Source: Candidatus Pacearchaeota archaeon
Lineage (GTDB): Archaea; Nanobdellota; Nanobdellia; Pacearchaeales; GW2011-AR1
Assembly (NCBI GenBank): GCA_019659125.1
Contig: JAIFVX010000001.1
Span: 182,097 to 246,096 of the forward strand
Direction of reading: 5' to 3'
Length of the DNA stretch: 64,000 bases
Positions within the stretch are counted from its first letter, which is position 1. Each line of letters begins with the position of its first letter. Of this stretch, positions 10,101 to 45,185 are shown piece by piece. A program made the translations under genes and the position numbers. Below the pieces are notes generated by a model. The model had not been told where the DNA came from. It did not search any database and saw only the letters and a program-made list of their open reading frames with translations.

Positions 10101-11384
10101 ATGATTGATATTAAGCTCATTCGAGAGAATGCTTCTGAAGTAAAAGACAATATCAAGAAAAAAGGCCAGCTTGATAAGATAAAACTGGTCGATGAAATCA
10201 AGAAAAAAGATGAGGAATGGAGAAAGCTTAAGCAAGAGGCAGATACGCTACGAGCAGAGAGGAATTCTATATCGAAAGAAATCAGCGAGAAGAAGAAGGC
10301 TGGAAAGAATGCTGATGCGCTCTTAAAGAAAGCAAAGAAAATACCTGAAGATATCGAGGAAATAGAATCAAAGATGAATCAGGAAGAGCAGAAGATTTCA
10401 GAAATGCTCTCAAAGATACCTAACCTCATGCATCACTCTGTTCCTCATGGAAAGAATAGCGCTGAAAATGTAGAGCTTGAGAAAATAGGAAAACCTAAGA
10501 AATTTGACTTTCCAATTAAGAATCATGCGGAGCTTGGAGAAACGCTCGACATACTTGATTTCGATGCATCTGCAAAAACCTCTGGAAATGGATTCTATTA
10601 CATGCAAGGGGATCTTGCATTGCTCAATCAGGCATTGATTAGGTTTGCGATAGATTCTATGGTTGCAAAGAAGTATGAATACGTTGAAACTCCTCTGATG
10701 GTTCGCAGCGGAGTCATAGACAATGTAACTGATCTCAACGACAAAAAGAACCAGATCTATAAGATTGAGGGAGAAGATGAGTATCTCATTGGAACAAGTG
10801 AACATTCATTGATAGGAAGATATATTGATACTATACTTCCCGAAAGTAAGCTCCCCATAAAGCAGACAAGTTATTCTATGTGTTTCAGGAAAGAGATTGG
10901 AAGCCATGGTATTGATGAGAAAGGATTGTTCAGAACCCATCAGTTCAACAAGATAGAGATGATTACCATCTGCAAGCCTGAAGAGTCTATGAAGCACTAT
11001 GAGGAAATGAAAAGTATTACCGTAGAGATCTTCAAGGCCCTTGGAATCCCCATCCGCGTATTAGCAATATCATCCGGCGATTTGGGAGATCTGAAACACA
11101 TTCAAGTAGATATAGAAGCATGGTCTCCTAGAAAACAAGAGTACTTTGAGGTTGGCTCATGCTCAAATCTTACCGATGCGCAAGCCAGGAAGCTCAAGAT
11201 ACGTGTCGATGGCAGAGGCCAGAGATACACTCCCCATACACTTAACAACACTGCTATCGCAACCTCACGAGCATTAGTGGCCATTATGGAGAACTATCAG
11301 AATAAAGACGGATCAATTGATATCCCCAAGGTCCTTGTGCCTTTCATGCACGGCAAGACCAAGATTGAAAAGAAAAAGAATTAA
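10101..11384 (+). CDS. serS: Seryl-tRNA synthetase
   Basis: Charges tRNA-Ser with serine; two tRNA-Ser genes lie a few kb upstream. The N-terminal residues 1-110 form the long antiparallel coiled coil that reads the serine tRNA long arm. The class II core follows, with motif 2 (MCFRKEIGSHGIDEKGLFRTHQFNKIE) and motif 3 (ALVAIMENYQ preceded by NNTAIATSR). It is the common, bacterial-like form rather than the rare methanogen type. The ATG at 10101 gives MIDIKLIREN, the family's usual start; a CTATATTTAAATAACC box lies upstream. Confidence 0.96.
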   Translation: MIDIKLIRENASEVKDNIKKKGQLDKIKLVDEIKKKDEEWRKLKQEADTLRAERNSISKEISEKKKAGKNADALLKKAKKIPEDIEEIESKMNQEEQKISEMLSKIPNLMHHSVPHGKNSAENVELEKIGKPKKFDFPIKNHAELGETLDILDFDASAKTSGNGFYYMQGDLALLNQALIRFAIDSMVAKKYEYVETPLMVRSGVIDNVTDLNDKKNQIYKIEGEDEYLIGTSEHSLIGRYIDTILPESKLPIKQTSYSMCFRKEIGSHGIDEKGLFRTHQFNKIEMITICKPEESMKHYEEMKSITVEIFKALGIPIRVLAISSGDLGDLKHIQVDIEAWSPRKQEYFEVGSCSNLTDAQARKLKIRVDGRGQRYTPHTLNNTAIATSRALVAIMENYQNKDGSIDIPKVLVPFMHGKTKIEKKKN

Positions 11385-11911
11385 TCTTTAAAGTAAAAAT
11401 TACCTTTATAGTTAGGAATATCTCTCGTTAAATCTCTTTTCTTTACGGCTGATCGGTCAACTGGTTTTCCGCCGATCCATAATGGGAACATATCAATAGG
11501 GAAGCTATCATATTCTTTTGTTATGTCTAGTGCTTCTCCTACATTTCCAGGTCCTTGATAAAACTCAGATCTTCCCCGAGAGTCTTTAATATGTGCTGCA
11601 ACCAAAGTAATACAAGAAGGCTTGCACACTCCTAGTGTCGCGATATCAAGTAAATTCTTACCAAATTTATTGCTAACGCTCATTAAACCTGGGGGATACT
11701 GAGCTCCTTCAGACATAGAGTCTGCTTTACCTTCATAGGCCGCTACTTCATAGATTCTAGCATAGACAGGACATCTCCTGCTTGATCGTTCAAATACAAG
11801 TACTCTTCCTAGTAGATCCTGAGCGACTTCATCAGCATGTCGAGCAAAGAAGTCTCTAGTTATTTTAGTGCTCTTATGGGGAATTTGAAATGATTCCATT
11901 TTATTTACCAT
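11381..11911 (-). CDS. 3-methyladenine DNA glycosylase (AAG/MPG)-fold protein with altered active site
   Basis: The fold is recognisable: DLLGRVLVFE, then ARIYEVAAYEGKADS, and later YQGPGNVGEALDI, which match LG-x-LV, (I)VETEAYxGxxD and the GPGxLxxALGI motif of AAG enzymes. These flip out and excise alkylated purines. By eye, the catalytic Glu in ETEAY aligns with Ala here, and the conserved active-site His just after it aligns with Glu. The Tyr-rich YVYxxYG motif is replaced by LLDIATLG. It may bind DNA without cutting the glycosidic bond. The ATG at 11911 is about 30 bases from the TATA box shared with the SNF2 operon. Length is 176 aa. The stop overlaps serS by 4 bases. Confidence 0.75.
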   Translation of the reverse strand: MVNKMESFQIPHKSTKITRDFFARHADEVAQDLLGRVLVFERSSRRCPVYARIYEVAAYEGKADSMSEGAQYPPGLMSVSNKFGKNLLDIATLGVCKPSCITLVAAHIKDSRGRSEFYQGPGNVGEALDITKEYDSFPIDMFPLWIGGKPVDRSAVKKRDLTRDIPNYKGNFYFKD

Positions 11912-11936
11912 TACAGAGGTACAACTATTCGTAACC

Positions 11937-11944
11937 TTTATAAA
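11937..11944. promoter_or_regulatory. Palindromic TATA box serving divergent genes
   Basis: TTTATAAA is its own reverse complement. It lies about 26 bases before the ATG at 11967 (SNF2 ATPase) and about 30 bases before the ATG at 11911 on the other strand (AAG-like protein). Both distances match the leaderless spacing seen elsewhere in the window. One box may therefore fire in both directions and co-express the two transcripts. Confidence 0.6.
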
Positions 11945-11966
11945 CATTATGGTGGCTCTCTACTAT

Positions 11967-14900
11967 ATGGAAAATAAGCACAAATATAGAAACTTCCAGG
12001 AGTATTGCGTAGAACAGATTAGAGTTGGTAATACCTATGCTTCCCGATTTCTTAAGGATGGAAAAAATGCTCTTGCTCTTGCTTTAGATGAAGGGAGAAA
12101 AAAATTACAGAGATACGAAAGTCAACAGCAGCACGAGCATGCTGGTAAGCTTCGAGGAGCTATAGAAAGAGCAGAAGAGAAAGGAATGATTGATGGAAGT
12201 TTTGAAATGACATATGAGGGTGCCGAGAGAATATACCAAAAAGTAAGAACTATTGTCGAAAAGAAGGGTGCAGAAAGAAACACTGATTATATGAATGTTT
12301 TCGATGCATTTGACCCCATCGCAGACCATGATCTTATAGCAACAGGAATATTTTGCCTGATTCCTGAAGTACGTGAGAAAGTAGGAAATAAGCTTGAGAA
12401 CCTCTATCGAGTTGTTCTAAATGTCGGAGCTGCAAAGAGAAAAGGATACTCTCTTCCTATGAAAGAACGTTCTGAGAAAAAGCAAGAAGACTCTATTATT
12501 TCAGCTTCGCTGGAGAGGCTTATTGCAGCCTTGCCAAAAATAGAAACCTCGGAAGAACAACAGTATCATAAGATGCTGAAAGTTCTTATTGAAAAGAAAA
12601 TTGAGAGAGAGGTATTTCCGCTGTTTCAGAAAGATGCCGGAAATGCGTTTAATTCATTTAATAGAAAAATACGAGAAGAGAAAAACGATAATCTAAGGGA
12701 AGCGTATACGAGATTAAAAGACGTTTATGAAGGATACTCTGCATTTAAAGCAGAAGAGGTTAATCAGGAATTCATAGACCCTGAAACTAAAAGAAAAGGA
12801 GTTCTTCCCTCACTGCACCAAAAAATTGCTATCTATCATTCAGTAAATGAGGAAAAGTTTGGTATTTTTGATGGATGCGGCACAGGAAAGACGGCTATTG
12901 GAGTGCTTACACAACCCCTTGTTGAAAAGAAATTAAAAGAAGAGGGAAAAGAATTTAGGAGAGCAGTAGTGGTATGTCCAAACGCTGGAAAGAAAACATG
13001 GAAGAAAGGGTTAACAGGAAATGATGCCGAACGATATCTTGCTGATCGACAGGATATCGCTGTAATAAACGGTGAGCAGAAGACTCCTGAGTTTCTTGCA
13101 AGTCTTCGCGATAAAAGATGGATTGTAACAAATTACGAGCAACTTACAACAAAAGTTGGTGAAGGAGAGAAGACCTTTGCGGAAGAACTTGCAGGTATGG
13201 GAGTAGATTATGTAATTTTTGATGAATGTCATCATATTAAGGGGTTAAGAACACAAACACCTAATGGTGCGCCTACACAAAGTGCAGCCGCAAGAATACT
13301 AGGACATAATGCACGATTTGTCTCGCTTCTTTCAGGCTCGCCCATCCCAGACAGCCTTAAAGATTACGCCGTGTTATACCATTTGCTCAACCCTCAGATC
13401 TGTCCAGATCCAAATAAGTTCGATGAATTATATCAAAACAACCCTAGAATACTATATACATTCGTAAATGAGAAAACCATTAGAAGAACGTCAGAAGCTA
13501 TTAATGAAGATCTTGATTGGAATGAACTTGAAGAGTTAGTTGAGTTAGATGATGTTCAAAGAACGCTCTACAATCATATTATCGAGTTTAGACCAGGAAA
13601 CTGGATGAATCAGGCACGAAAAGCCCTTCTTGACCCTAGACTCGTTGATCCAGAAGTAATTCAGAGAGCAGGTTTAATAGGAAAAATAGGAGTCGAGAAT
13701 TCGGCTAAATACAAGAGTCTTGAAAACCTATTGGTGAAGCCTGACGGCCCTATCTCTAAACAAGAGAAATTTATTATATTCTCAAGTATGTACAAAGAAG
13801 GTGTAACAAACTCAGACAATGAAGAGTTAAGGAACAGATATGATAAATTGGGTCTTTCTGAAGAGTATACGAGACTGGGACTAAATCAATCCTTAGATCA
13901 GATTCTTAAGAGCAATATAGAAAAGAAGCTAGGAAGAAAGGTCAACATAGGCCTTATCGATGGAGATGTTAAAAATATAGAAGATAGAGAGGCAATAGTA
14001 GATAGGCTTAACCACGATCTTGATGGAATTCTCTGCACTACCGATACAGGAGGAGAAAGTCTTAACTTTACACCTGCAAACCATGCATTCTTCCTTGATG
14101 ATGATTATACGCCAAAGACCAATGAGCAAGCAATAGCGAGACTTGTGAGAAAGGGACAGACAAAAAAAGTCAATATCTGGCACCTGCGTGGTAAAGACAC
14201 TCTCGATGAAAAACTTACCGATTATGTAGAAAAGAAAGCAATCATCATTAAAACAGCTCTTGATGGATATCCCCTTACCAAGGAAGAAAAAGAATTACTC
14301 GAAGATACTCAAGGAAGAAAACTAGGAGATTTGATCAAAAGAAGTGTCGGAGGTATCTCTATCAATGTCCTTGATGCTACAATAGACGCTATTGATGACT
14401 TCGAGTCAAGAAAGAGAAGCAGAGGAAGAGGAGAACAGAGAGCACGAGGAAGCATGGAGTATGAAACAACTGACGCTCAAAGAGTAACCCAATGGATCGG
14501 AAAAGATCCTCTTAATTGCTGGAGTGACCCGCAATTCGTTGAACTCTACATGAATGTGCTCCCTAATCTGTCAGTTCCCGTTATTCATAGAGCAAAAATA
14601 TGCGATCTTATAGGTAGAGCAAAGAAAGGAGAAGTAGATTTCCCAAGGAAGGTACTTTCAGAGGGGTCTGGCCCATCACTTCTCTACAACGCATACCAGG
14701 AGCTAAAAGGAATTGTAAAGGTAAATGGTCACAAGGTTCCAACCATATTTGACAGAGACATCTCACAACTTATGTTGGACAAAGGAAATAACCCTAATAA
14801 AATACTGGGAAATATGACTGGAGAGAATAGCTTAGTTAAAGCATCATCATTTGACATGGTTGATCACGAATCAATCACACTTCTCAGAAATCCCGATGAG

Positions 14901-15419
14901 GTAAAAAACACATTACTAGAAGCAAATAGGGTACTGAAACCAAAGGGTACACTAGAGATTGTACTCAAGAACAAGAGATTCCTTGATAGCTTTTATCCAG
15001 GTCTTGAAAAGCTGGGCTTTGAACTTATTACAGGAAAAGAAGAAGGATTCTCTCTTAGTAAACCTGCATTTAAGAGATTACGAGCAGAGCAGGGAGAGCA
15101 CTTTGCAGAAAGTTACGCATCAAAACTAGCCAATACACGAGTGATTATCGCCCGAAAAGAAGCGGCTCCTGCACAGGTTGATGCAAATGATCTATGGTTT
15201 GGAACCATGGGGTATGAAGAGGAAAAGAAGGAAGACCATCAAGAGAAAGAAGTCATTGCATTACATCCTTCAGAATCACGAAACATCATCATGCCGCGAA
15301 GTAGAAGAAAAGGAGCGAAACCAAGACTTTTACGACAGAATGTAATAGAACCTAACCTTCAATACAATGTAGATTCGCGCGGTGTTGTTCAAGAAATAAA
15401 AAAATTAGGAGGAAAATAA
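11967..15419 (+). CDS. SNF2-family ATPase with C-terminal methyltransferase-like domain
   Basis: Residues about 1-285 form a charged alpha-helical N-terminal region. A SNF2/SF2 ATPase follows: Walker A GCGTGKT near residue 305, DECHH Walker B near 419, SGSP motif III near 457, CTTDTGGESLNF motif V near 695, and QAIARLVRKGQ motif VI near 720. That last motif is typical of SNF2 and not of DEAD helicases. Such ATPases translocate on double-stranded DNA and remodel protein-DNA complexes. Residues about 830-1070 look like a class I methyltransferase fold, with VLSEGSGPS where motif I would be, then SSFDMVDHESITLL and EANRVLKPKGTLEIVL. The motif I glycines are poor, so it may be inactive. It heads an operon with five repeat proteins; an in-frame GGAGG at its 3' end serves the next gene. 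I start at 11967 on TATA spacing. Confidence 0.85.
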   Translation: MENKHKYRNFQEYCVEQIRVGNTYASRFLKDGKNALALALDEGRKKLQRYESQQQHEHAGKLRGAIERAEEKGMIDGSFEMTYEGAERIYQKVRTIVEKKGAERNTDYMNVFDAFDPIADHDLIATGIFCLIPEVREKVGNKLENLYRVVLNVGAAKRKGYSLPMKERSEKKQEDSIISASLERLIAALPKIETSEEQQYHKMLKVLIEKKIEREVFPLFQKDAGNAFNSFNRKIREEKNDNLREAYTRLKDVYEGYSAFKAEEVNQEFIDPETKRKGVLPSLHQKIAIYHSVNEEKFGIFDGCGTGKTAIGVLTQPLVEKKLKEEGKEFRRAVVVCPNAGKKTWKKGLTGNDAERYLADRQDIAVINGEQKTPEFLASLRDKRWIVTNYEQLTTKVGEGEKTFAEELAGMGVDYVIFDECHHIKGLRTQTPNGAPTQSAAARILGHNARFVSLLSGSPIPDSLKDYAVLYHLLNPQICPDPNKFDELYQNNPRILYTFVNEKTIRRTSEAINEDLDWNELEELVELDDVQRTLYNHIIEFRPGNWMNQARKALLDPRLVDPEVIQRAGLIGKIGVENSAKYKSLENLLVKPDGPISKQEKFIIFSSMYKEGVTNSDNEELRNRYDKLGLSEEYTRLGLNQSLDQILKSNIEKKLGRKVNIGLIDGDVKNIEDREAIVDRLNHDLDGILCTTDTGGESLNFTPANHAFFLDDDYTPKTNEQAIARLVRKGQTKKVNIWHLRGKDTLDEKLTDYVEKKAIIIKTALDGYPLTKEEKELLEDTQGRKLGDLIKRSVGGISINVLDATIDAIDDFESRKRSRGRGEQRARGSMEYETTDAQRVTQWIGKDPLNCWSDPQFVELYMNVLPNLSVPVIHRAKICDLIGRAKKGEVDFPRKVLSEGSGPSLLYNAYQELKGIVKVNGHKVPTIFDRDISQLMLDKGNNPNKILGNMTGENSLVKASSFDMVDHESITLLRNPDEVKNTLLEANRVLKPKGTLEIVLKNKRFLDSFYPGLEKLGFELITGKEEGFSLSKPAFKRLRAEQGEHFAESYASKLANTRVIIARKEAAPAQVDANDLWFGTMGYEEEKKEDHQEKEVIALHPSESRNIIMPRSRRKGAKPRLLRQNVIEPNLQYNVDSRGVVQEIKKLGGK

Positions 15420-16763
15420 ATGAAAAATAAACTAGAAGTGTTCCTAGATCAATATAATGAAGGCAAACATGCTGCCGAAGATGAGCTTCTGAGGGAGAAT
15501 AGAAAAAAGGATAGGAAACCTAATGGATATTGGAACTATATGGAGCATGTCATACAAGAGGTTCGAAGAGTTATGTATGAAAACGACTGGACTGAATTAC
15601 CTGATCATAACGACTTAGTAAAAAGAGGATATGGCTATCTATCGGGTGCGATCAAAAAACAGGGAGGATATCACTCACTCAGAAAGAAACTAGGACACAA
15701 AGCTAAAATCGTAACGTCGCGCTATTGGGAAGATTTCAACAGGGTTGAGCGTGAAGCCAAGAAAATTATGAAAAGGCATAATTTTGACATTTTGCCAGGT
15801 TGTCAAACTTTATCAAAACTCGGATATGGTAGTTTTGCAGTTGGAGTTATAAAATATCATGGGGGGCTAAGGATATTGCGTTCAAAACTTGGTCAGGAGC
15901 AGATCGCACGAGAACCCGGAACATGGTCTGATTTACAAAGAACGATTACAGAAACAAAAAAAGTGATGAGGAAATTAGGTACGGATACGTTACCTCCGGC
16001 CAATAAGCTAAATAAAAAAGGATTTGGATACCTAGTAAAAGCAATTACCCGGCATTATGGGGGATTTAGAAAATTCAGAGAAGAGCTCGGAGAAGAGCAG
16101 TTACAAATAGAAAAAGGAACCTGGCTAGATATCAATTACGGAATACAAAAGGCCAAGGAAGTCATGAAGGAAAATCATCTAGACAGTTTGCCCAATTATC
16201 TTAAATTAAAGGAATTGGGGCATAGCGATTTGTCTGCAGCTATTCATAGACATTATGGAGGGTTTAGGAAATTTAGGGAAACATTGGGGCAGGGCCAGAA
16301 GAAGTTAGGAGAAGGTATCCTGAAAGATCAAGGATATGTTATCAAACAATTAGAGGCTATTGCAAGAGAACATCACCTGGAAGTACTTCCTAGCACTTAT
16401 TTTCTAAGAAATCATAGTCATTCTAGTCTTGCAGCAGCAGTCACAAAATATCATGGTGGAATGAGAAAGTTGCGTGCCGATGCAGGGGAACAGCAAGTGA
16501 AGCATGAAGAAGGATATTGGATGGATATTAAGAACGTTGCAAAAGAGGTGCTCGTGATTATGAAGAAGCACGGATTTACAGAACTTCCAAGTCAAAGAAA
16601 GCTCACAGAGTTAGAATATACAGCCATTGCGAGTTGTATAAGTCAACACTGGAGCTTTCCCGAGTTAAGAAAACAGCTTGCTGCTTACCTATCACAAGAG
16701 CCCATCACTCATGCGCTTGAAGGTCTTTTAGAGTCATATGCAGGAGAAAGCCATGGAGAATAG
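15420..16763 (+). CDS. Six-repeat modular protein 1 of the SNF2 operon
   Basis: A 447-residue protein with an N-terminal tag (LEVFLDQYNEG), six tandem repeats of about 66 residues, and a C-terminal tag (LEGLLESYAGE). Each repeat has an aromatic start (GYW, GTW), a helix with an EAK/ETK core, LP about 25 residues in, a GY/GF turn, an A(I/V) helix ending YHGG or HYGG, then RxxLG(Q/E). No enzymatic motif is present. The layout resembles the homing-endonuclease-associated (HNH) repeat, a small helical DNA-binding unit; this is comparison by eye. GGAGG at 15408-15412 lies 7 bases before the ATG. The 3' end overlaps the next gene by 11 bases. Confidence 0.8.
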   Translation: MKNKLEVFLDQYNEGKHAAEDELLRENRKKDRKPNGYWNYMEHVIQEVRRVMYENDWTELPDHNDLVKRGYGYLSGAIKKQGGYHSLRKKLGHKAKIVTSRYWEDFNRVEREAKKIMKRHNFDILPGCQTLSKLGYGSFAVGVIKYHGGLRILRSKLGQEQIAREPGTWSDLQRTITETKKVMRKLGTDTLPPANKLNKKGFGYLVKAITRHYGGFRKFREELGEEQLQIEKGTWLDINYGIQKAKEVMKENHLDSLPNYLKLKELGHSDLSAAIHRHYGGFRKFRETLGQGQKKLGEGILKDQGYVIKQLEAIAREHHLEVLPSTYFLRNHSHSSLAAAVTKYHGGMRKLRADAGEQQVKHEEGYWMDIKNVAKEVLVIMKKHGFTELPSQRKLTELEYTAIASCISQHWSFPELRKQLAAYLSQEPITHALEGLLESYAGESHGE

Positions 16764-19206
16764 AATAGAGACGTTCTTAGAAATATATAACTCTGACGAA
16801 GGCACTGAGAAAGATGAAGTGCTGAAAGAAGAAAGAAGAAAGCAAAGAGAATATTGGAAAAGCTGGGAAAACGTAAGCACTGCCTTACAGAACATTACTA
16901 AGGAACTAGGACATTTTCCAACGCAGAAAGAAATTACACAGTCGCAATATATCGGTTTAATGTATGGGATTTCTCGTTACCATAATAACCTCTATACGGC
17001 AACTCTCAAAATGGGACACACGCCAACGCAGGGAGAACGAGGACACTGGAAAAAGTGGGAGAATGTTGAGAAGGAATTAAAAGGTATGATTGAACAATTA
17101 GGACATTATCCCTCCTATACTGAAATTAGAAAGTTAAAAGGATCAATCACAAGCGCGATTGATAAGCATCACGGAGGGTATAATAATACCAGGGCGAGGA
17201 TGGGTTTTGACCTCTCACGAAGAGAGCCAGGTTATTGGGAGAGTAGTGAAAATGTTGTAAAAGAAGCTAAAAGTGTTATGAAAAAATATGGTTTTGATGA
17301 ATTGCCTGATGCAAACAAACTTACTGAATTGGGAGAGACACAGTTGATCGGAGGCATTTCTTCATATGGGGGATTCAAAAAAGTAAGAAGATTGCTTGGC
17401 GAAGAACAGCGGTATGCAGATGTAGGCACGTGGCATAATCTCGAAAATTGTATTAAAAAGGCACAAGAAATAAAAAGAGAGCTAGGGGTGAAAACTCTTC
17501 CATCGACGAATATTCTTCAGGATCACGGATACGGAGCTTTCGTAGCAGGCATACAAGCACATCACGGAGGCATTGTTGAATTCAGGAAAAAGCTAGGTGA
17601 ACAGCAGCTAAAAAGAGAATCGGGAATATGGAGAAGTCTAGAATATACAATACAAGAAGCAAAGAAATTTCTTGAAGAGAAGGGCTTAGAAGTCCTGCCA
17701 GGACAAAGCACTATACAAAATTCAGGTTACAGTGGACTTGTGGCAGCTATTAATCTCTATCATGGAGGACTAAAAGAGTTTGAACCGAAGTTCTATCAAG
17801 CAATAGGCAAGTCTGTTGACAAGTCTCTTCTTAGACGAAGAGAGAAAGTCGTTAACATCCCGAAAGAAACATTAGAAAGAGAGTATAATCAAGAGAAAAT
17901 GACTCAATCAGAAATTGCTGAAAAACACGATTGTGCTATACCTGCTATAAAGAGATTGATGGACGAGCATGGAATAAAGACAAGAAATACTAGCGAGTAT
18001 CATCGACCCGATGGATTCATCGAGCCTAAGAAGAGTGAATTAAGGCAATGGTATGTAAAAGAGGAAAAAAGCTTGAGGGAGATAGGAGATGAATTAGGCG
18101 TATCCCGAAGAGTCGTACAAGGATTTATGGAAAAATATGATATTCCCATACGATCTAATAGAACGTTTGAAGAATTACTGAAAAAAATTGAAAAATCGGA
18201 GCTTGAGAACTATTACATAGATAAAAGAATGACTCCTGTACAGGTAGCGGATAAACTCGGAGTCAGTGGCCCAACGGTAAAGAAACTGCTTGAATATCAT
18301 GAAATACCCATGCGGAACATCTCACAAGCCCGTCTAAGAAAAGGAGTACAATTACCAACAAAAGAGGAGCTTGTTCGCCTGTATGTTCAAGAGAGAAAGA
18401 ATACGGTTGAAATTGGAGAGATTTTGGGCATATCAAACCCCACTGTGGGGATTCTCTTAAGAAAACACGATATAGAAGTAAGAAACAAAAAGGGAATCTA
18501 TGATAATAAAAAGACAAGAAAAGAGACTATATATGAGCTTCTTACTATTTCTGGTAAAAATCCAGAAAAACTAGTTATACGGGATTTTCAAAATTATCAA
18601 CGTGATGATGGCACTTGTTTTATCGGTCTTTTAGGATGGTATCAGAGAAATTACGAGTGCACCCCGACACAAGCTAAAAATAAGATGTTACAGGAGCTAG
18701 TAGGTTGCACTGCCCTTCATGAACCTAAACGAGCAAAAAGGGTTTCACTTAATGAAGTTGACTCATGGGATAAATTAAAGAAGAAAATTAATGAACTGTT
18801 TAGAGATCATCCTGAGTTAAAAAGAGAGATGCCTGGATCCGCATGGTTAAGGAAAAATGGATACACATTCATAGGAAGAGCTGCACCCTTATATGGAGGT
18901 ATGGCTAGTATTCGAGATAAATTAGGGCAACCTCAAATGAGAGTAGAGAATGGAAAATGGAAGGAATTCAACGCTGTGAAAGCCGAACTTCAAAGAATAA
19001 TTGACACACATGATGAATTGGAAGGTTTTGCTCCATCAGGAAATTGGCTTAATGAGCATGGTTATTCTTATCTTACAAGCGCAATTAAAAGATATCATGG
19101 TCATTATAGTGTATTTGTAGAAAAGTTTGAAAAAGCAAGTGGAATTTCAAAAGAAAGTAATCTTGAAGGTTTACTAGGCAATTATATTGGAGGGAACGAT
19201 GACTGA
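16753..19206 (+). CDS. Modular protein 2: repeats plus four tandem helix-turn-helix units
   Basis: The 817-residue protein begins with tag IETFLEIYNSD and then five of the repeats (residues about 32-365). Four tandem HTH units follow (about 375-575), each about 45-60 residues: EIAEKHDCAIPAIKRLM, EIGDELGVSRRVVQGFM, QVADKLGVSGPTVKKLL and EIGEILGISNPTVGILL, each closed by a GI/DI-x-x-R-(N/S) end. A unique segment (about 580-660), two more repeats of a GFAPSGNWL type, and the C-terminal tag LEGLLGNYIGG follow. HTH units strongly suggest sequence-specific DNA binding. AGGAG at 16742-16746, inside gene 1, precedes the chosen ATG by 6 bases. It overlaps the next gene by 8 bases. Confidence 0.8.
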   Translation: MENRIETFLEIYNSDEGTEKDEVLKEERRKQREYWKSWENVSTALQNITKELGHFPTQKEITQSQYIGLMYGISRYHNNLYTATLKMGHTPTQGERGHWKKWENVEKELKGMIEQLGHYPSYTEIRKLKGSITSAIDKHHGGYNNTRARMGFDLSRREPGYWESSENVVKEAKSVMKKYGFDELPDANKLTELGETQLIGGISSYGGFKKVRRLLGEEQRYADVGTWHNLENCIKKAQEIKRELGVKTLPSTNILQDHGYGAFVAGIQAHHGGIVEFRKKLGEQQLKRESGIWRSLEYTIQEAKKFLEEKGLEVLPGQSTIQNSGYSGLVAAINLYHGGLKEFEPKFYQAIGKSVDKSLLRRREKVVNIPKETLEREYNQEKMTQSEIAEKHDCAIPAIKRLMDEHGIKTRNTSEYHRPDGFIEPKKSELRQWYVKEEKSLREIGDELGVSRRVVQGFMEKYDIPIRSNRTFEELLKKIEKSELENYYIDKRMTPVQVADKLGVSGPTVKKLLEYHEIPMRNISQARLRKGVQLPTKEELVRLYVQERKNTVEIGEILGISNPTVGILLRKHDIEVRNKKGIYDNKKTRKETIYELLTISGKNPEKLVIRDFQNYQRDDGTCFIGLLGWYQRNYECTPTQAKNKMLQELVGCTALHEPKRAKRVSLNEVDSWDKLKKKINELFRDHPELKREMPGSAWLRKNGYTFIGRAAPLYGGMASIRDKLGQPQMRVENGKWKEFNAVKAELQRIIDTHDELEGFAPSGNWLNEHGYSYLTSAIKRYHGHYSVFVEKFEKASGISKESNLEGLLGNYIGGNDD

Positions 19207-19654
19207 GAGAAAACCTCGCGGTTACTGGGAGGATTTTAAGAACGTCAAAGAAGAGCTTAAAAAAGTAATTAGCAAGCTCGGGCATTTTCCCGTTCAAAGA
19301 GAGCTAAGCGAGGTTGGTAATTCATCTATAATAGCGGCTTTAACTAAATATCATGGGGGTTTAAACGCAGGAAGAGAACGAATGGGATATGATTCAACTA
19401 CTAGATCTCACGGATACTGGAAAGACTGGAAAAATTTAGTAAACGAGCTACAGCCGATCTATGAAACGTTAGGAAACTATCCTACAGCGTATAAACTAAG
19501 GAAAATGGGGCATGTTTCTCTGGAAGCAGCCATTCACCAGTATCATGGAGGATCACAGTCGGTGAAAGAAAGATTCTTAGCGGCAATAGGAGAAAAAGAG
19601 ATCACTGTCGAGTCAATCTTAGATGGTTATGTTGGAGGACCACATGCCAGATAG
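19199..19654 (+). CDS. Small two-repeat protein 3 of the SNF2 operon
   Basis: A 151-residue protein that starts MTERKPRGYW without the N-terminal tag. It holds two repeats of the shorter LGHFP/LGNYP subtype (about 63 residues, ending YHGGLNAGRERMGY and YHGGSQSVKERF) and ends with the C-terminal tag VESILDGYVGG. The GGAGGG that encodes the preceding gene's terminal Gly-Gly lies 4 bases before this ATG. It is paralogous to the last gene of the operon (start 21172). Probably a partner or adaptor of the larger repeat proteins. Confidence 0.75.
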   Translation: MTERKPRGYWEDFKNVKEELKKVISKLGHFPVQRELSEVGNSSIIAALTKYHGGLNAGRERMGYDSTTRSHGYWKDWKNLVNELQPIYETLGNYPTAYKLRKMGHVSLEAAIHQYHGGSQSVKERFLAAIGEKEITVESILDGYVGGPHAR

Positions 19655-21179
19655 AATAGAAAATTTACTTGATGCTTATGTAGATGGAAAGAGAGCCAGA
19701 AGAGACTCTGCTCTACAGGATGATAAAACAAGAAAGCCTAATGGCTACTGGAATAATATCAAGAATATAGTAAAAGAAGCTCGTACCTTCAAGAAGAAGC
19801 ACAAACTCAAACAATTGCCTGGAGCAACAACAATACGTGAACTTGGAGGGAACACTTTGGTTGCGGCAATAATGCATCACGTAGGTATGAGAAAATTTAG
19901 AGATACGATGGGGGAAGAACAGCGAGAAGCAGAAAAAGGAGTATGGAAAAACAAAGATTATGCACTTCAAGAAGCCAGACGGATTATGCACGAAAACAAT
20001 CTTACATCTCTCCCTAGCCAGTACACATTAAATCAAATGAAACAGGGAGGGTTGGTGAGAGCAATCCAAATCTATCATGGAGGGTTTAGAAAGTTCAGAG
20101 ATGATCTAGGGCAATCCCAGGTCTTAAGGAAAAGAGGATTATGGAATAATATAAGATATGTGCTAAAAGAAGCCCGTGTTATAAAAGAGAGACACGGATT
20201 TAAGCAGCTACCTGGAGGAGAAACTCTTGCTAAACTCGGGTATTCCGCATTTAACAATGCGGTCTGGAAATATCACGGAGGTATGAATAATATAAGAAAG
20301 AAACTAGATGAAGAGTTGCCAAGAACAGATTCTTCTTTATTAAAAGATGAGACATATATTCTAAAACAAGCGAGAAAGATAATGAGAGATGAAGGATATG
20401 AGACCTTACCAGGTCACGACTCTCTCTATAAAAAAGGATATGCAAGTTTTACCAATGCTGTGAATAGACATCATGGAGGAATCGCAGCAATACGAAAGAA
20501 GCTTGGACAAGAAATTAACAGAAAGTCCAACTCGTATTGGAAAAAATGGAGGAATGTTCATAATGCATTAAAAGAAATAGTAAATGAATTAGGGCATTTT
20601 CCTAAACAAAAGGAATTACAAAAAAGAGAAAGTTCAATAGCTGCGGCTATAACCTTACATCATGGAGGGATGAATACAGTGAGAGAGAAAATGGGATATG
20701 AAAGGACAAAATTAGATAATGGATTCTATAAAGACTCAAAAAACATTGAGCAAGATATGCAAAAAATAATTAAGACTCACACAGAATTGCAAGGAACTCT
20801 TCCTTCTGCTCACTGGCTGCAAAAAAACGGCTACGCCTCCTTATCTAATGGCATTCGCCAAATCTACGGTAGCTATGGCGAGTATAGAAAACAGAAAGGA
20901 TTGCCTGAAAGCTTGCAAGTTGAACTAGGAAGATGGAAAGACCTTGAATTTACATTACAACAGGCGCAAGAATTCATGGAGGAAGAGGGGTTAACAGAGT
21001 TGCCAGGAAGCTGGACTATGAATAGGAAAGGATATAGCTCATTAGGCGCGGCTATTACAAAATATCATGGTGGAATAAAGAAATTCAGAGAAAGACTATA
21101 CCTCCGTATTGGAAAAAGCCCTCCCTCCTCACAACTAGAATCAGTGTTATTGGAATATGCTGGAGGGAACGATGACTAG
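19644..21179 (+). CDS. Seven-repeat modular protein 4 of the SNF2 operon
   Basis: The 511-residue protein has an N-terminal tag (IENLLDAYVDG), seven repeats and a C-terminal tag (LESVLLEYAGG). Repeats 1-4 and 7 are of the standard LP type, repeat 5 is the short LGHFP type, and repeat 6 is the GTLPSAHWLQKNGY type, so all three subtypes occur in one protein. There is no HTH array or catalytic motif. GGAGG at 19634-19638 inside the previous gene acts as the likely ribosome binding site for the ATG at 19644. The final 16 bases before and over the next start are the same as at the gene 2/gene 3 junction. Confidence 0.8.
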   Translation: MPDRIENLLDAYVDGKRARRDSALQDDKTRKPNGYWNNIKNIVKEARTFKKKHKLKQLPGATTIRELGGNTLVAAIMHHVGMRKFRDTMGEEQREAEKGVWKNKDYALQEARRIMHENNLTSLPSQYTLNQMKQGGLVRAIQIYHGGFRKFRDDLGQSQVLRKRGLWNNIRYVLKEARVIKERHGFKQLPGGETLAKLGYSAFNNAVWKYHGGMNNIRKKLDEELPRTDSSLLKDETYILKQARKIMRDEGYETLPGHDSLYKKGYASFTNAVNRHHGGIAAIRKKLGQEINRKSNSYWKKWRNVHNALKEIVNELGHFPKQKELQKRESSIAAAITLHHGGMNTVREKMGYERTKLDNGFYKDSKNIEQDMQKIIKTHTELQGTLPSAHWLQKNGYASLSNGIRQIYGSYGEYRKQKGLPESLQVELGRWKDLEFTLQQAQEFMEEEGLTELPGSWTMNRKGYSSLGAAITKYHGGIKKFRERLYLRIGKSPPSSQLESVLLEYAGGNDD

Positions 21180-21627
21180 GAGACCTAGAGGATATTATCA
21201 AGATTTTCAGAACATTGAGCGAGAGCTAAAAGAAATTGCGGCTCATGTAGGATATTATCCAAGATATGTAGATATAAGAGAACTAGGAAGGACAAGTCTG
21301 GCAGCCGCTATAGATAAGTATTATGGTGGATTAAATAAAGTTAGAAAGAGATTGAAATACAAATCTCATACTACGAGACCAAGGGGATTTTGGAATAAAA
21401 AAGGAAATGTCATCAGAGAAGCCAAATTTATTATAATTAATCATAATCTGTCGGAGTTACCCAACGAAGCCACACTGCGCAAGATGGGATATGGTGGTTT
21501 TACATATGCAGTATATAAGATGTATGGAGGTATTCCTGCTTTGAGAAAAGAACTTGGACAGACTTCTAGAATAGATACAAAAAGCAAATTAACCTCTTTA
21601 TTGGAGCAATATGCAGGATCTAGTTAG
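21172..21627 (+). CDS. Small two-repeat protein 5, last gene of the SNF2 operon
   Basis: A 151-residue protein beginning MTRRPRGYY, with one short-type repeat (VGYYP, YYGGLNKVRKRLKY) and one standard repeat (LSELP, MYGGIPALRKELGQ), ending in the tag LTSLLEQYAGSS. The same two-repeat design follows gene 2, suggesting that a large-plus-small pair was duplicated. No gene follows on this strand, and here the tag's GG codons are not GGAGG. The tag residues L-LL-x-x-Y-A-G persist anyway, so they are conserved for the protein and not only for the ribosome site. The stop overlaps the convergent flavoprotein gene by 4 bases. Confidence 0.75.
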   Translation: MTRRPRGYYQDFQNIERELKEIAAHVGYYPRYVDIRELGRTSLAAAIDKYYGGLNKVRKRLKYKSHTTRPRGFWNKKGNVIREAKFIIINHNLSELPNEATLRKMGYGGFTYAVYKMYGGIPALRKELGQTSRIDTKSKLTSLLEQYAGSS

Positions 21628-26586: not shown

Positions 26587-27257
26587 AAGCATTGATTTTT
26601 GATTCCGGACCCATTATCAATCTTGCAATGAACGGTCTTCTCTCCGTATTGAGGGATTTGAAAAAGTCATTTGATGGAAAGTTTATTATTACCCAGGCTG
26701 TGAAATACGAGATCATTGACCGTCCTGTAGGAGTGTCTCGTTTTGAACTTGAAGCACTTATGGTAAAAAGCCTATTTGACTCAGGAGTGCTCGAGATGCC
26801 ATCTGAATTCGGTGTTGACGAAGAAGAGTTAAAGAAAGCAACTCAAAAACTCATGGAAAGCGCTAATCATTACGTACAGATAAAGGAAAAATGGATTCCT
26901 ATTGTAAGTGAAGCTGAAATGTCGTGCCTCGCCTTGAGTTCAGCACTAACAAAAAAGGGCATCACGAATCTTATCGCAATAGATGAGAGAACAACACGAA
27001 TTCTATCGGAAAATCCTGAAAACCTTGAAAAACTTCTCTCAGATAGGATGCATGAAAGAGCGACAATTATCAGAAAAGACATTTCACTCTTCTCAGGCTA
27101 CCGTTTTATAAGGTCTTCGGAAATAGTATATGTTGCCTACAAGAAAGGCCTCATTCCCCTACAAGGGAAAAAAGTTCTTGAAGCTCTTCTCTATGCAACA
27201 AAGTTCAAGGGAGCGGCCATCTCCTTTGAAGAAATTGATCAGCTGAAGAAACTCTAG
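26583..27257 (+). CDS. PIN-like nuclease domain protein, 224 aa
   Basis: The N-terminus MKALIFDSGPIINLAMNG has the PIN first-strand Asp. A conserved Glu lies in AVKYEIIDRP. SEAEMSCLALSSAL and LIAIDERTTR supply the later acidic residues, a pattern seen in larger archaeal PIN proteins. The C-terminal half (KGLIPLQGKKVLEALLYATKFKG) looks helical. Likely an RNA-cleaving enzyme controlled by the preceding gene product. The final stop overlaps the convergent surface-protein gene by 4 bases. Confidence 0.75.
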   Translation: MKALIFDSGPIINLAMNGLLSVLRDLKKSFDGKFIITQAVKYEIIDRPVGVSRFELEALMVKSLFDSGVLEMPSEFGVDEEELKKATQKLMESANHYVQIKEKWIPIVSEAEMSCLALSSALTKKGITNLIAIDERTTRILSENPENLEKLLSDRMHERATIIRKDISLFSGYRFIRSSEIVYVAYKKGLIPLQGKKVLEALLYATKFKGAAISFEEIDQLKKL

Positions 27258-29737
27258 TTCTCGCTTCTATCAGTCATGTTGTCACACCCTGAATCATACA
27301 AATCAATCTTTCCATCCCCATCGTTGTCTTTTCCATCATAACACTGTAAGATAGCTGGTAGATTAGGCTGAGTAATAGAACGTATGTCTGGAACATTATT
27401 TACAAAAACAGGAGTATACCCCATTTCCATCAACCGTCGTCCCTGGTCAACTCGTGCTTGTACTCCCCCAACGAGTCTATCATCGTGAATACGATACCAG
27501 AGTGATGCGCTTGGATTAAGATACGAGGCAAGAATAGCAGGGGATTTAGGCATATCTGCTTCAGTGTAGAGCTCGGGACCCATCCATACGTCAGCATCAC
27601 CATTGAAAATGTCTGATGTATAGACTTCCTGTGTTGATCGTATGGATGGTGCAAGCATCTTAATAGTTTTTAGGTAAAGATATCTTTGTATAGGAACTGC
27701 TTTGAATGCATCTAACCCGAGCTCAGTAGTACCCCTACTAAGAGCAAGCGAAAGTTCTCGTTTTACAAATTGCTGATGCGCTCTTCGTGAGAAATCAAGA
27801 TACTGGAGAGTAGGAGGTTCCCATTGGTCAGGGAAAGGAACCTGAAGAGTCCTTCCCCACCAGAATCCAAGGGAAATGCCGGACTGTCCCATTCGACTCA
27901 GGTTTGCCGCGCTATTGCTGACATTAGGCAACCAAAAGCTCTGCATATGAGGGGGATAGTTGAAGTCTTCATTCTCATATAACCCTCCGGCAGCCCATAC
28001 CATGTATCGCTTGTATCCTTTCGATTGAGATTCCGCTATCCAATAATCAACCAGAGGGCCCCATCCATATTTATCAACTCTTCCGATTTCCGGGGATCTA
28101 AAGGATGATATATATCGTCGAGGATTGTCTCTAAGAAGAGCCTGATCAATAGGTAAAGAAAAATCATTGTTAATATGGTAGATAGAGTCTGCCATAATAT
28201 CTGCTCTTACCGGTCTCCGATCGCGATCAGAAACAGTTCCTGTTCGTGGTCCATAGAGGCTTTCAAAGTATCTCTTATATGGCAATGCTGTAAAGATTGC
28301 ATTTCGAGGACTACTAAACCTGACAGAGATAGTATAATTTCTTATTGCTCCAGCTGAAATATTTCCTCTAATATCAGTCCTATTTATGGTGCCCCCATAG
28401 TGCGTAAGGTTGGCAGTTTGGACAAAGTTCATGAAGCGAACACTCCAGTATCCGTTGGGGTCAATGCCTGTCGGCGTTCCCACTGAGTCTATATAGACTC
28501 CAAACGTAGGATCATAGCCATATTCGAGGTAAGGGAACTCAAGCGCAACACCGCTTGCAAAAGTCCCATCATCAACAATAGAGATGGGGGAATAGACGTC
28601 AGCAACAGTATAGACTCCAACCCACACAAAATTCCCACCATAATACGTGCTCGGATTATCAATAACAAACGGCAGGTAACCAGCACCAGCACCTCCAATA
28701 AAGTTGGCTGGACCGCTCGTCTTATGTTTGATGCCGTAAAGAGTAAAATCAGGATGGTTGATAGGGGAACCTGTTGGATTCTTAAGCACAATATTGATAT
28801 CTACTCCTCCAGGTCGGGTAATAAATTTTTTAGTGACTTCCAACCCGGTTGTAGTCCCCATTAAAATCTGGAGGTCAGCCAAAGTCGTAGCTCCATTCTT
28901 TACCACACAATGAGCAACTTCTCCGTCGCAGGCTGTCGGAAAAGAAACGGGAAGCAGCATATCCTCATCGGCAGCATATTTCTGCGGAGAGACAGTTCCC
29001 TCAAAGTCATCATACGGAGAAAGGCAATTAGGATCCAGCATGTCTACAAGCCCATTGCCGTTATTGTCAATCCCGTCAGCACACTGGAACTTATAGTCAA
29101 CCCATTCGGTAACTCCGGAAGCAATACATCCATAATCAACTGTATCAATAAACCCATCACCATCATTGTCAACACCATCCGTGCATTCGGCACCGGGAAG
29201 GAAAACATAAATATAGGATTCTCCAGGTGCTTTATTGTTCGGCCCCGCTAATGAGCTTACTTGAGGGTTATCTTGTGCTTTCGGGATAAGACTAAGAGAA
29301 GGAGTAATTTCTTTTCCTTTGGAAGTAGAAAAGATAGGCACCAAAATAAGCCTGTGAAGCGTCGCTAAGGTATCTCCTGTGTAGTCAACAGTCACTTTCT
29401 TTTCTTCAAATTCAGCAAGAGTCGTGTTAACTCTGTGAGTGACGCTCGAGCCCTGATTATCTTCCATGATAAGATAGAATGCAATAGCTGAAGGAGAGTT
29501 TGATTTTCGCTTGATATTCATTTCAACAAGTTTTGAGTCACCGCTTGTACGGAAGTGCACCGAACTTGGTACGATGACATATTTCTCATTCCGCAATGTT
29601 ATGTCAATCTGGCCCTGAATGTCTTCTATAGGGGAGGTGACTCCGCGGATAATAATCCATAAAAGAACGACGGCAGCTAGCCCTAGAAGAATAAATAGCA
29701 CAGCGCTAAGAATCGTTGATAAACCTCTTTTTTCCAT
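27254..29737 (-). CDS. Secreted surface protein with pilin-like signal, Ca-binding DNDGDG motifs and a possible glycosidase domain
   Basis: The N-terminus MEKRGLSTILSAVLFILLGLAA-type sequence fits an archaeal pilin/class III signal (KRG before a hydrophobic helix). Three copies of a Cys-flanked DNxGDG or DNNGNG motif (about residues 188, 222, and near the end) resemble type 3 calcium-binding loops. The central region (about 480-790) has Trp/Tyr/Asp-rich segments such as ISLGFWWGRT and TELGLDAF, and VWMGPELYTEADM, which suggest a TIM-barrel-type carbohydrate-active domain; no family can be named. Length 827 aa. Probably exported and anchored at the cell surface, maybe on pilus-like structures. 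Confidence 0.65.
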   Translation of the reverse strand: MEKRGLSTILSAVLFILLGLAAVVLLWIIIRGVTSPIEDIQGQIDITLRNEKYVIVPSSVHFRTSGDSKLVEMNIKRKSNSPSAIAFYLIMEDNQGSSVTHRVNTTLAEFEEKKVTVDYTGDTLATLHRLILVPIFSTSKGKEITPSLSLIPKAQDNPQVSSLAGPNNKAPGESYIYVFLPGAECTDGVDNDGDGFIDTVDYGCIASGVTEWVDYKFQCADGIDNNGNGLVDMLDPNCLSPYDDFEGTVSPQKYAADEDMLLPVSFPTACDGEVAHCVVKNGATTLADLQILMGTTTGLEVTKKFITRPGGVDINIVLKNPTGSPINHPDFTLYGIKHKTSGPANFIGGAGAGYLPFVIDNPSTYYGGNFVWVGVYTVADVYSPISIVDDGTFASGVALEFPYLEYGYDPTFGVYIDSVGTPTGIDPNGYWSVRFMNFVQTANLTHYGGTINRTDIRGNISAGAIRNYTISVRFSSPRNAIFTALPYKRYFESLYGPRTGTVSDRDRRPVRADIMADSIYHINNDFSLPIDQALLRDNPRRYISSFRSPEIGRVDKYGWGPLVDYWIAESQSKGYKRYMVWAAGGLYENEDFNYPPHMQSFWLPNVSNSAANLSRMGQSGISLGFWWGRTLQVPFPDQWEPPTLQYLDFSRRAHQQFVKRELSLALSRGTTELGLDAFKAVPIQRYLYLKTIKMLAPSIRSTQEVYTSDIFNGDADVWMGPELYTEADMPKSPAILASYLNPSASLWYRIHDDRLVGGVQARVDQGRRLMEMGYTPVFVNNVPDIRSITQPNLPAILQCYDGKDNDGDGKIDLYDSGCDNMTDRSEN

Positions 29738-42536: not shown

Positions 42537-45185
42537 TTATGGTGTTATTTCACGGACACTCATCTTCTTGTAGATCAATCCGTCTGTACCAACACCATCG
42601 CTTCTCCAATAGACTGCAATATTTGGCTTTCCTGATTCGCTTCCAGCGCGGTTATTGCTGTTAGTCAATTTCATCGCAGGATTGATTCCTGAAGCACAAG
42701 CAGTTCCACCGACTGCGAAGTTACTTCCTGTGTCCTCAAACTCATTTACTTTCACCCAGGTTCCGCCGTTAAGGCCGTCGGTGGTGTCCATGTACAATTC
42801 TAACTTGACATTTCCATTCGGCAAATCATACACTACATATTTGTATCCGATCCATACATTCTTAGGCAATCCTCCAGTCCAGAACTGCTTGCTTGCGACA
42901 ACGCTTGAACTTGGATGTCGTGTCTCTTTCTCAAAGTCTATTTTTCCGTCGTATCTCATTCGAGCATCGACTCCTCGCGTATCACACCCATCAATATTTT
43001 CATTACCCGTAGTGCCATGATTGGTCCTAGCCACGCCTTCAATCCCTCCCCAAGGAGTACTACTGTCGGCAATCCTCATTGCATAGACAGTCATCTCGAC
43101 ATTTCCCCAACTGTTAGCAATGTTTAATGCAGGGTCATGAATATACATTCTAGGCGTAGATCCAGAGATCTTGAATAATCCCTTTCCATCGACTTTGAAG
43201 CTTGCATCACCATGGTTGGGGTCGAACCACGTATCATAAGGGTCCTTATCATCAAAGTTTCTTGCAATACCATTGTCCCAGGTTGAAAACCATTCCTTTC
43301 CGGAGGTCTTGTAAACCTCTTTGATTCCAAATTTATCGATTCCTGAAGTTAATGGTGGAGGCAATGTTATACCAACACTAGGAGTGCTAACGCTAACATT
43401 ATTAGTATAAGCCGAATTACCAACGCTGTTATAAGCACTAACCCTATAAGTAGTATTTGTTCCTGGAGGAACAGAGTCGAAAAAGGTTTTTACGTTAGAG
43501 CCCACAGTACCAATTACCTGGAACAGACTATTTGCTCGCTCAATCTTGAACCCCTGTTCACTATCTGAAGAGTCATCCCACATCAAATTCACTCCGCTAA
43601 TATTAGTTGTTGCCCGCAGGTTTGTCGGAGCAGAGGGTACAGAATTTCCTGTTATCACTCCACTGCCCTCGTATAATGCCTTGACTTCAGAAGCACTCAA
43701 TGCTCTATTGTAAACTTTGACATCATCGATAGATCCCTTGAAATAACTGTTTCCATCTCGTGTACCTATCTGGAGAGGAGCATTCCCATTTCCAGGAGTC
43801 ATTCCTGAAGTGGAGTCGCTGTCTTTCAGAACTCCATTCTTGTATAACTGCACTTTACTTCCATCGTAGACTCCAACCAGATGTACCCATTGGCCCACTG
43901 CAAGCGGTTCCTGGACGTAGCTTCCGATACCATTCCCACCGTTCAAGTCAAAGATATAGAAACTTAATCGATTTCCTCGCCCCTCGCTGTTGGAGGAATT
44001 ATACTGTCTGAACACGAATTCATGGTTTCCTGTTGCCCCCTTTCCTAATAAATGAATGTAATCCTTTCCACTTCCCTCACCGACAAAGTTTGTTGCTCCG
44101 ACCTTCATCCAAAATGCTACCGTAAATCTATTGGTAGTAATAGGACTCAGATCATTTGAGTCAGCCACCGTGATCTTGTCATTCACTCCGTCAAATTCAA
44201 ATGCTCCATCGCCATTCTTTCCTCCAGTGCTGCTCCAAGTCGCCCCTGAAACACTCCCATTATGATTCCTGCCTGAAAGATCATTAACAGTTTGGCTGTT
44301 TTCGTTGAACATAAAATGCAATACAGAAGTTGTATCTCCAGAGACAGTCGTATTATGAATAGGATTAGGTGTAGTAGTATTAGTGGTGTTAACAGGAGGC
44401 TGCTGTTGAGGCTGTCCTGCATAGAGTGCCTGAATCTCATTCTTAGTTAATGCTCTATTATAGATCTTGAGCTCATCCATCGATCCCTTGAAGTAGCTGC
44501 TTCCTCCTCGTGTACCGAGCTCAAGAGGAGCCTTTCCATTTGCGGGGACAACTCCTGTCACGGCAGTGTTTCCCCTCAAGACTCCATTCTTCCATATCTG
44601 AATATGACTGCCATTATAGACAGCGGTAAGATACATCCATTCTCCATTTTGTATTGGTTCTTGAACGTACGTGGCCACTCCCGTTCCTCCGGCCAAATTG
44701 TATAATGAAAAACTTATTTTATTGGCATTAGTACCTGAACTGTTGAACTGTCGAAGCACGAATTCATGGTTTCCTGTTGCCCCCTTTCCGAGGATATTAA
44801 TATAATTACTTTGAGAACCCTCTCCTACGAATGCAGTCCTATCGACTCTTAACCAGATAGAGATGCTAAAAGCTCCAGTAGCGCTAGGACTCAGATCATT
44901 TGAGTCAGCCACCGTGATCTTGTCATTCACTCCGTCAAATTCAAATGCTCCATCGCCATTCTTTCCTCCAGCCTTATTCCAGACTGCTCCAGACACAACA
45001 CCGCTATGGCTACCGGCAAAGTCATGCACACTCTTATCGTTCTCTCCAAACTGCGACTCATTATTAAATCTAAAGTGCAACACGCTTCCATCTGCAGTCG
45101 CTGCATTCGCGTTTCCCCAGAGCATCATCGCACCGAGACACACAAGCACAGTCCAGACAATCACACCTCGCACACTCTTTTTCAT
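42537..45185 (-). CDS. Exported protein with two LamG domains, FN3 and a polysaccharide-lyase-like C-terminal domain
   Basis: The signal peptide is [18 protein letters not shown] to NANA. Two LamG/concanavalin domains follow (about 30-250 and 290-500; [38 protein letters not shown]). A fibronectin III domain (about 510-600; [20 protein letters not shown]) precedes a C-terminal beta-jelly-roll (about 620-880) resembling polysaccharide lyase or alginate-lyase-like domains. It probably binds or trims the cell's own polysaccharide. A CTTTATATAGG box is about 27 bases upstream and a shared AGACCCCTTTAAATA element lies beyond it (see the separate entry). 882 aa. Confidence 0.8.
44142..44227. repeat. 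86-bp direct repeat, copy 1 (LamG-coding)
   Basis: Identical over 86 bases to 44886-44971, encoding the same stretch of two LamG domains in the same protein. The copy is exact even at third codon positions, indicating recent gene conversion or duplication. A 32-bp core of it also occurs at 45820-45851 in the next gene. Confidence 0.9.
44886..44971. repeat. 86-bp direct repeat, copy 2 (LamG-coding)
   Basis: Second copy of the exact repeat at 44142-44227, in the first LamG domain of the 882-residue protein. Flanking LamG-coding sequence is clearly diverged, which localises the homogenisation to this block. Confidence 0.9.

Follow-up and report, generated by a model that had tools for sequence, protein, structure and literature searches.

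Type I restriction-modification (R-M) systems (HsdR/HsdM/HsdS) are characterized by a translocase, a methyltransferase and separate, exchangeable proteins that confer DNA specificity. An SNF2 ATPase and a methyltransferase (MTase) are also known to share one polypeptide, in DarB and the methylase-helicase dyads of polyvalent proteins, where the MTase is an adenine methylase and the dyads belong to mobile elements (Iyer et al. 2017, PMC5512222). The locus described here occupies positions 11385..21624 of a 64,000-nucleotide stretch (the window) of the genome of a Candidatus Pacearchaeota archaeon (GenBank assembly GCA_019659125.1, contig JAIFVX010000001.1, positions 182,097 to 246,096 of the forward strand). 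It carries a gene for an MPG/AAG-fold protein and, transcribed divergently from it, an operon that encodes an SNF2 ATPase with an MTase domain (the hub) and five overlapping, basic repeat proteins (the adaptors R1 to R5). As in type I R-M systems, a translocase, an MTase and specificity-like proteins are brought together, but here the translocase and the MTase reside in one SNF2 protein, several array-type adaptors are found per locus, the operon has no HsdR-type nuclease domain, the MTase lacks DNA-MTase motifs, and an MPG-fold protein is added. The locus differs from the methylase-helicase dyads by its Methyltransf_11-type domain, its adaptors and its occurrence in chromosomal islands. With DISARM DrmD, Zorya ZorD, Dpd DpdE, BREX BrxHI and Hma HmaA, all catalogued in PADLOC, the likeness is limited to the SNF2/SF2 helicase core, and neither a full-length family match nor the partner genes of a PADLOC system were found for the island. 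From sequence comparisons we consider it highly probable that the proteins form a hub-and-adaptor architecture. Neither PADLOC, PHROGs and NCBIfam nor the literature searched yielded a system composed in this way, which agrees with a preliminary description of this DNA as an undescribed-looking operon; the gene set is real and coherent.

The island (10.24 kb, genes on both strands) lies exactly between serS and an NADH-dehydrogenase-like (NDH-like) gene, in a host represented by an 809 kb assembly that is 85.6% complete. In a sister species of the same genus (G048) the two flanking genes, whose products are 92% (SerS) and 77% (NDH-like) identical to those of the host, are directly adjacent and constitute an empty site. 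DNA homology to this species ends at window position 11384 and picks up again at 21625, and since it breaks at both island edges, the 10.24 kb were gained as a discrete unit, unless the sister lost them cleanly. No integrase, transfer or other mobility gene was found in the island itself. The open reading frame (ORF) coordinates and the overlapping operon of the preliminary description are real, with junctions of 0, -11, -5, -11 and -8 bp from SNF2 through R5.

Relatives were searched for mainly in Nanoarchaeota-type genomes; for genome contigs more widely, a single scan was made, using just the lineage I hub. Fourteen SNF2-MTase hubs were recovered, all from Nanoarchaeota-type genomes, and they fall into four divergent lineages that we named I to IV. 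The window hub belongs to lineage I, with orthologues at 35-53% identity in G006, G068, G320, G396, G268 and the near-identical pair SI039/SI075. The other lineages were reached by a profile search with the MPG-fold protein, followed by searches with the hubs so found, and comprise G388, G415 and G182 (lineage II), G533 and G415 (lineage III), and G026, G140 and G189, the last truncated at a contig end (lineage IV); complete genomes are few, and only two to three loci represent each of lineages III and IV. Relatives recovered by the hub scan bear the names Candidatus Woesearchaeota, Candidatus Pacearchaeota and, in one case, "uncultured archaeon". The distribution is sparse: a lineage I hub is present in 5 of the 378 genomes in the class and a lineage II/IV-type hub in 3 of the 371 in the phylum, lineage III was found in 2 of 193 genomes, and the lineage IV query was matched in 4 of 180 genomes of the order. 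An MPG-fold gene belongs to the same cluster at 10 of the 12 evaluable hub loci and array adaptors adjoin nearly all hubs; because gene order and strand vary between loci, this association is not one inherited block. SNF2, repeat or helix-turn-helix (HTH) proteins and the MPG-fold protein thus recur together in many genomes, contrary to the possibility, raised at the outset, that the gene set is never conserved together. G415 carries a lineage II and a lineage III locus together (L074, L119), and in G070 (L072:6965-8353) a dead MPG-fold gene and an HTH adaptor stand with no hub nearby, as an orphan pair or a relic of lineage II.

The hub (11949..15419, + strand) contains SNF2 (SNF2-rel_dom) and Helicase_C domains above the Pfam cut-offs, with intact Walker A/B motifs and motifs III, V and VI, and the ATPase motifs are kept across the lineages. 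The class-I MTase-fold domain, extending approximately over 14586..15158 (+), shows motif I (EGSGPSLLY) and motif II (DRD). Taken alone it is below threshold (Methyltransf_11, E=0.08); lineage II hubs score above the cut-off for the same family, and profile-profile alignment (hhalign) of the window domain with the MTase of lineages II/IV gives a probability of 96.7% (E=4.5e-10). The MTase fold of the window hub is confirmed by this homology to relatives that pass the Pfam cut-off, as the preliminary description had anticipated for the C-terminus. The S-adenosylmethionine (SAM) motif I and the acidic residues of motif II are retained across the lineages, most clearly in G140 (DIGCGPGML) and lineage II (DIASGPFSL); motif I is degenerate in the G268 and SI075 hubs.

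The adaptors are built largely from a repeat of about 66 residues, present in exactly the 24 copies first counted (6+7+2+7+2 in R1 to R5), each domain being detected by a repeat hidden Markov model (HMM) at E <= 4e-8. The repeat family is Pfam PF18780, HNH_repeat, a "homing endonuclease associated repeat": R2 scores 29.6 bits against a gathering cut-off of 26 and an SI075 adaptor reaches 40.6 bits, while R3 and R4 are below the cut-off, yet are recognized by an HMM built from the window repeat. In comparison with PF18780, the proteins described here have the repeat in arrays of 2-12 units, bear putative docking tails and have no endonuclease domain. Membership of a known family with an unrelated role had been named as a finding that would speak against the first interpretation; a family can now be named, although no unrelated role is documented for it, and no description of HNH_repeat or of the gene combination was found in the literature searched. 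An AlphaFold2 model of two repeats, built from 49 sequences (the window and relatives), is all-helical with four helices per unit and a predicted local distance difference test (pLDDT) score of 92.6. A Foldseek search of the PDB with this model gave no match at E<=0.001, nor did a PDB sequence search with the repeats give any. Sequence entropy along the repeat peaks at positions 47, 32, 31, 35, 43 and 44, which in the model fall where helix 2 begins and on the exposed side of helix 3; this is the pattern expected for HTH-type base reading, but general surface drift could produce it as well. The adaptors of the window are basic (pI 9.1-10.1). These data support the view that the repeats are a DNA-binding-type module, in line with the earlier suggestion that they may read DNA, and the fold, charge and variability suggest that the adaptors may bind DNA sequence-specifically.

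The repeat HMM and tail comparison define R1 (15420..16763, +) with six units and tails at both ends, R3 (19202..19654, +) and R5 (21172..21627, +) each with two units and a C-terminal tail, and R4 (19644..21179, +) with seven units and tails at both ends. R3 is 150 residues long with the ATG used here, rather than 151. In R2 (16753..19206, +), assigned by Pfam and the repeat HMM and also tailed at both ends, seven units flank a sigma70-r4-like HTH array (residues 374-578; 17872..18486, +), so the five proteins are not all made almost entirely of the repeat, as had been thought. The putative docking tails at the C-termini, all on the + strand, are HALEGLLESYAGESHGE in R1 (16710..16760), SNLEGLLGNYIGGNDD in R2 (19156..19203), ITVESILDGYVGGPHAR in R3 (19601..19651), SQLESVLLEYAGGNDD in R4 (21129..21176) and SKLTSLLEQYAGSS in R5 (21583..21624). 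Across the relatives, the adaptor C-termini of one locus tend to match, and the tail or C-terminal domain varies along with the hub lineage. The tails of lineage I clade A (window, G068, G320, G396) are L-x-x-[FL]-[LI]-x-x-Y-[AVIL]-G-like (LExLLxxYxGG) and often also N-terminal, in the SI075 clade they are of the MEVLKEILEELGDE type and ...YADKEMEVLKEILEELGDE-like on 6/6 adaptors, and in G026 most adaptors end in an LLESLLEEGG-like tail; lineage II adaptors possess a common C-terminal domain of about 170 residues, which recurs in G140 behind another array. The arrays themselves cross these boundaries: the HTH array of R2 is homologous to those of lineage II adaptors (37% identity to the G415 adaptor, E=3e-33), the "WYxxG" repeats of G320 match G140 (E=2e-26) and are thereby common to lineages I and IV, and HNH_repeat-type units occur in both of these lineages. 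That the ends are lineage-specific while the arrays are exchanged is what chiefly argues for the hub-and-adaptor organization. The lineage III adaptors weakly resemble the MPG-fold protein at the N-terminus (BLAST E=0.003 in a very small search), which is no more than a hint that both may dock at one site. The preliminary description had envisaged the repeats as a filament, for which no evidence was found, or as a platform along which the ATPase moves; the common tail and the exchanged arrays point instead to interchangeable specificity subunits that would dock on the hub.

R4 is in register with an adaptor of G068, 6 of its 7 repeats being reciprocal best matches in order at 50-66% identity. 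R1, R2, R3 and R5 have no such repeat-for-repeat orthologue in this comparison, and the notion that all adaptors are orthologous between hosts was rejected. Other adaptor loci include further components. In SI075 (L028:6444-11998) the adaptors comprise an unnamed repeat of about 40 residues ("NYAGMSRSEV...FYxxIxxxGF") that fits no curated Pfam family and resembles PHROG 20046, of unknown function. In G068, a 214-residue protein encoded between hub and adaptors (L014:13092-13736, -) has an HxD...H pattern reminiscent of Fe(II)/2-oxoglutarate oxygenases, with a match to Pfam DIOX_N no better than E=0.057, and could be an additional DNA-modifying partner, and a PIN/VapC-like ORF (L014:6544-6969, +) stands in opposite orientation between adaptor genes.

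The MPG/AAG-fold gene (11381..11947, - strand) encodes a protein that matches PF02245 (Pur_DNA_glyco; E=8e-12, 45.3 bits against a cut-off of 27) as well as AAG entries of the PDB, so the base-excision-glycosylase fold first attributed to the divergent partner is upheld. Glu125 is the catalytic residue of human AAG. In the aligned window protein, this position (Gln in PDB 1EWN) is occupied by Ala, within EVAAY (codon 11741-11743). The equivalent residues are A, A, A and S in lineage I (relatives EVAPW, EIAAY and EVSAW), A, G, A and A in lineage II, and D in lineage IV, and in lineage I the AAG alignment shows replacements at further pocket positions. The Glu is kept by canonical MPGs from this phylum, among them the separate MPG of the host itself (ETEAY; G000:C1:54231-54665). 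Because the catalytic Glu is absent in most lineages, the protein first called a glycosylase is more probably a reader that flips bases.

We give about even weight to the interpretation that the locus is a horizontally spread, modular system that marks or silences selected DNA, probably foreign, in a sequence-directed way; it is supported by the empty site in the sister species, the sparse distribution and the recurrence of the three parts together in four divergent hub lineages. In this mechanism the SNF2-MTase would be the hub, a double-stranded DNA translocase with a SAM-binding MTase domain, and the adaptor arrays of helical DNA-binding modules would read long DNA sites. Docking of the adaptors through the lineage-specific tail or C-terminal domain would send one hub to several targets. 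The MPG-fold protein, presumably catalytically dead in most lineages, may bind or flip a base as a reader or clamp where the hub acts, the selected DNA, probably foreign or mobile, being marked or silenced and not cut. Several points weigh against this interpretation. No DPPY/NPPY or PCQ-type DNA-MTase motif was found in the MTase domain, for which reason DNA is possibly not its substrate, and the AlphaFold2 model of the hub C-terminus is poor (pLDDT 48) and was set aside. No MPG gene lies near the hub in SI075, where the examined flanks reach 2.8 kb upstream and 10 kb downstream, or in G140, whose contig ends 0.7 kb upstream of the hub, and lineage III MPG-fold proteins retain the Glu (ETEAF, ETEGF), which led us to reject its loss everywhere. 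Neither a nuclease nor a known defence gene was found to co-occur, the defence-island context consisting of occasional toxin-antitoxin-like neighbours only, and the orthology of R4 in a distant host is more in keeping with a target that stays stable than with viruses that change fast.

The last observation is also an argument for a host chromosome organizer or regulator, in which adaptors bound at conserved sites of the chromosome would bring in the SNF2-MTase, and this would remodel chromatin or transcription locally; the sequence relatives of the SNF2 ATPase include eukaryotic chromatin remodellers. We regard this as unlikely, given that only a few percent of relatives carry the system, that the sister species is without it, that it forms a discrete island and that 4 of the 5 adaptors have turned over. 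Somewhat less likely still is a mobile-element maintenance or anti-host module similar to the methylase-helicase dyads found in polyvalent proteins of phages and plasmids. Such elements typically couple SNF2 to an MTase (PMC5512222), the island is precise and the SNF2 core is related to the phage helicase family phrog_62; on the other hand, IMG/VR, INPHARED phages and PLSDB plasmids yielded generic SNF2 cores only and no orthologues of the hub, R4 or the MPG, the island has no integrase or transfer gene, and the MTase is not of the adenine type. Restriction by base excision, with the adaptors directing the hub and the MPG-fold protein excising bases of the target DNA, would follow the restriction-glycosylase logic known for R.PabI. 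The lineage III Glu and the R-M-like pairing of an MTase with specificity-like adaptors would suit it, and it appears improbable, as every member found of lineages I, II and IV has Ala, Ser, Gly or Asp in place of the Glu and lineage I shows further pocket replacements. An alkylation-damage repair complex of the MPG and an SNF2 motor that clears proteins off lesions accords with the adjoining genes and is very improbable, as the catalytic Glu is missing, the host has its canonical MPG, the distribution is sporadic, and the array adaptors and shared tails would be left unexplained.

Within the interpretation of sequence-directed marking or silencing, a more specific and tentative proposal, to which we lend less weight, is a hitherto unknown, protein-programmed class of DNA-targeting machinery, with an SNF2-MTase effector, arrays exchangeable through a common tail and a former glycosylase as base-flipping reader, by which archaea would achieve sequence-specific epigenetic silencing of foreign DNA free of RNA guides and nucleases. 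CRISPR and restriction systems are under-represented in ultra-small archaea (PMC12988326). If the proposal is true, these archaea can single out DNA by protein-programmed, nuclease-free means; the repeats would then be a novel modular scaffold for reading DNA, usable much as TALE arrays are, and the tail a docking tag that can be transferred. The dead glycosylase would add another case of a repair enzyme turned reader, and the hub would have a bearing on the proposal that SNF2-methylation couplings arose in prokaryotic conflict systems.

Between the divergent genes, TTTATAAA (11937..11944, no strand) is a probable bidirectional TATA box common to both. The likely true SNF2 start, aligned in homologues, is 11967, about 26 bp after the box, and the likely MPG-fold start is 11911 (-), which gives 176 residues, with the box about 30 bp before it. 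The palindromic box of the preliminary description is retained because of this position, the spacing to both starts fitting leaderless archaeal genes; the octamer alone is not rarer than chance within the window. A similar box, CTTTATAAAC, is found in G320 at the same spacing upstream of SNF2. Elsewhere in the window, an 827-residue protein (27254-29737, -) has no Pfam match at 1e-4, and two giant surface-type proteins are encoded, one of 882 residues with Laminin_G_3 (42537-45185, -) and one of 1900 residues with Laminin_G_3 and Ig-like domains (50816-56518, -).

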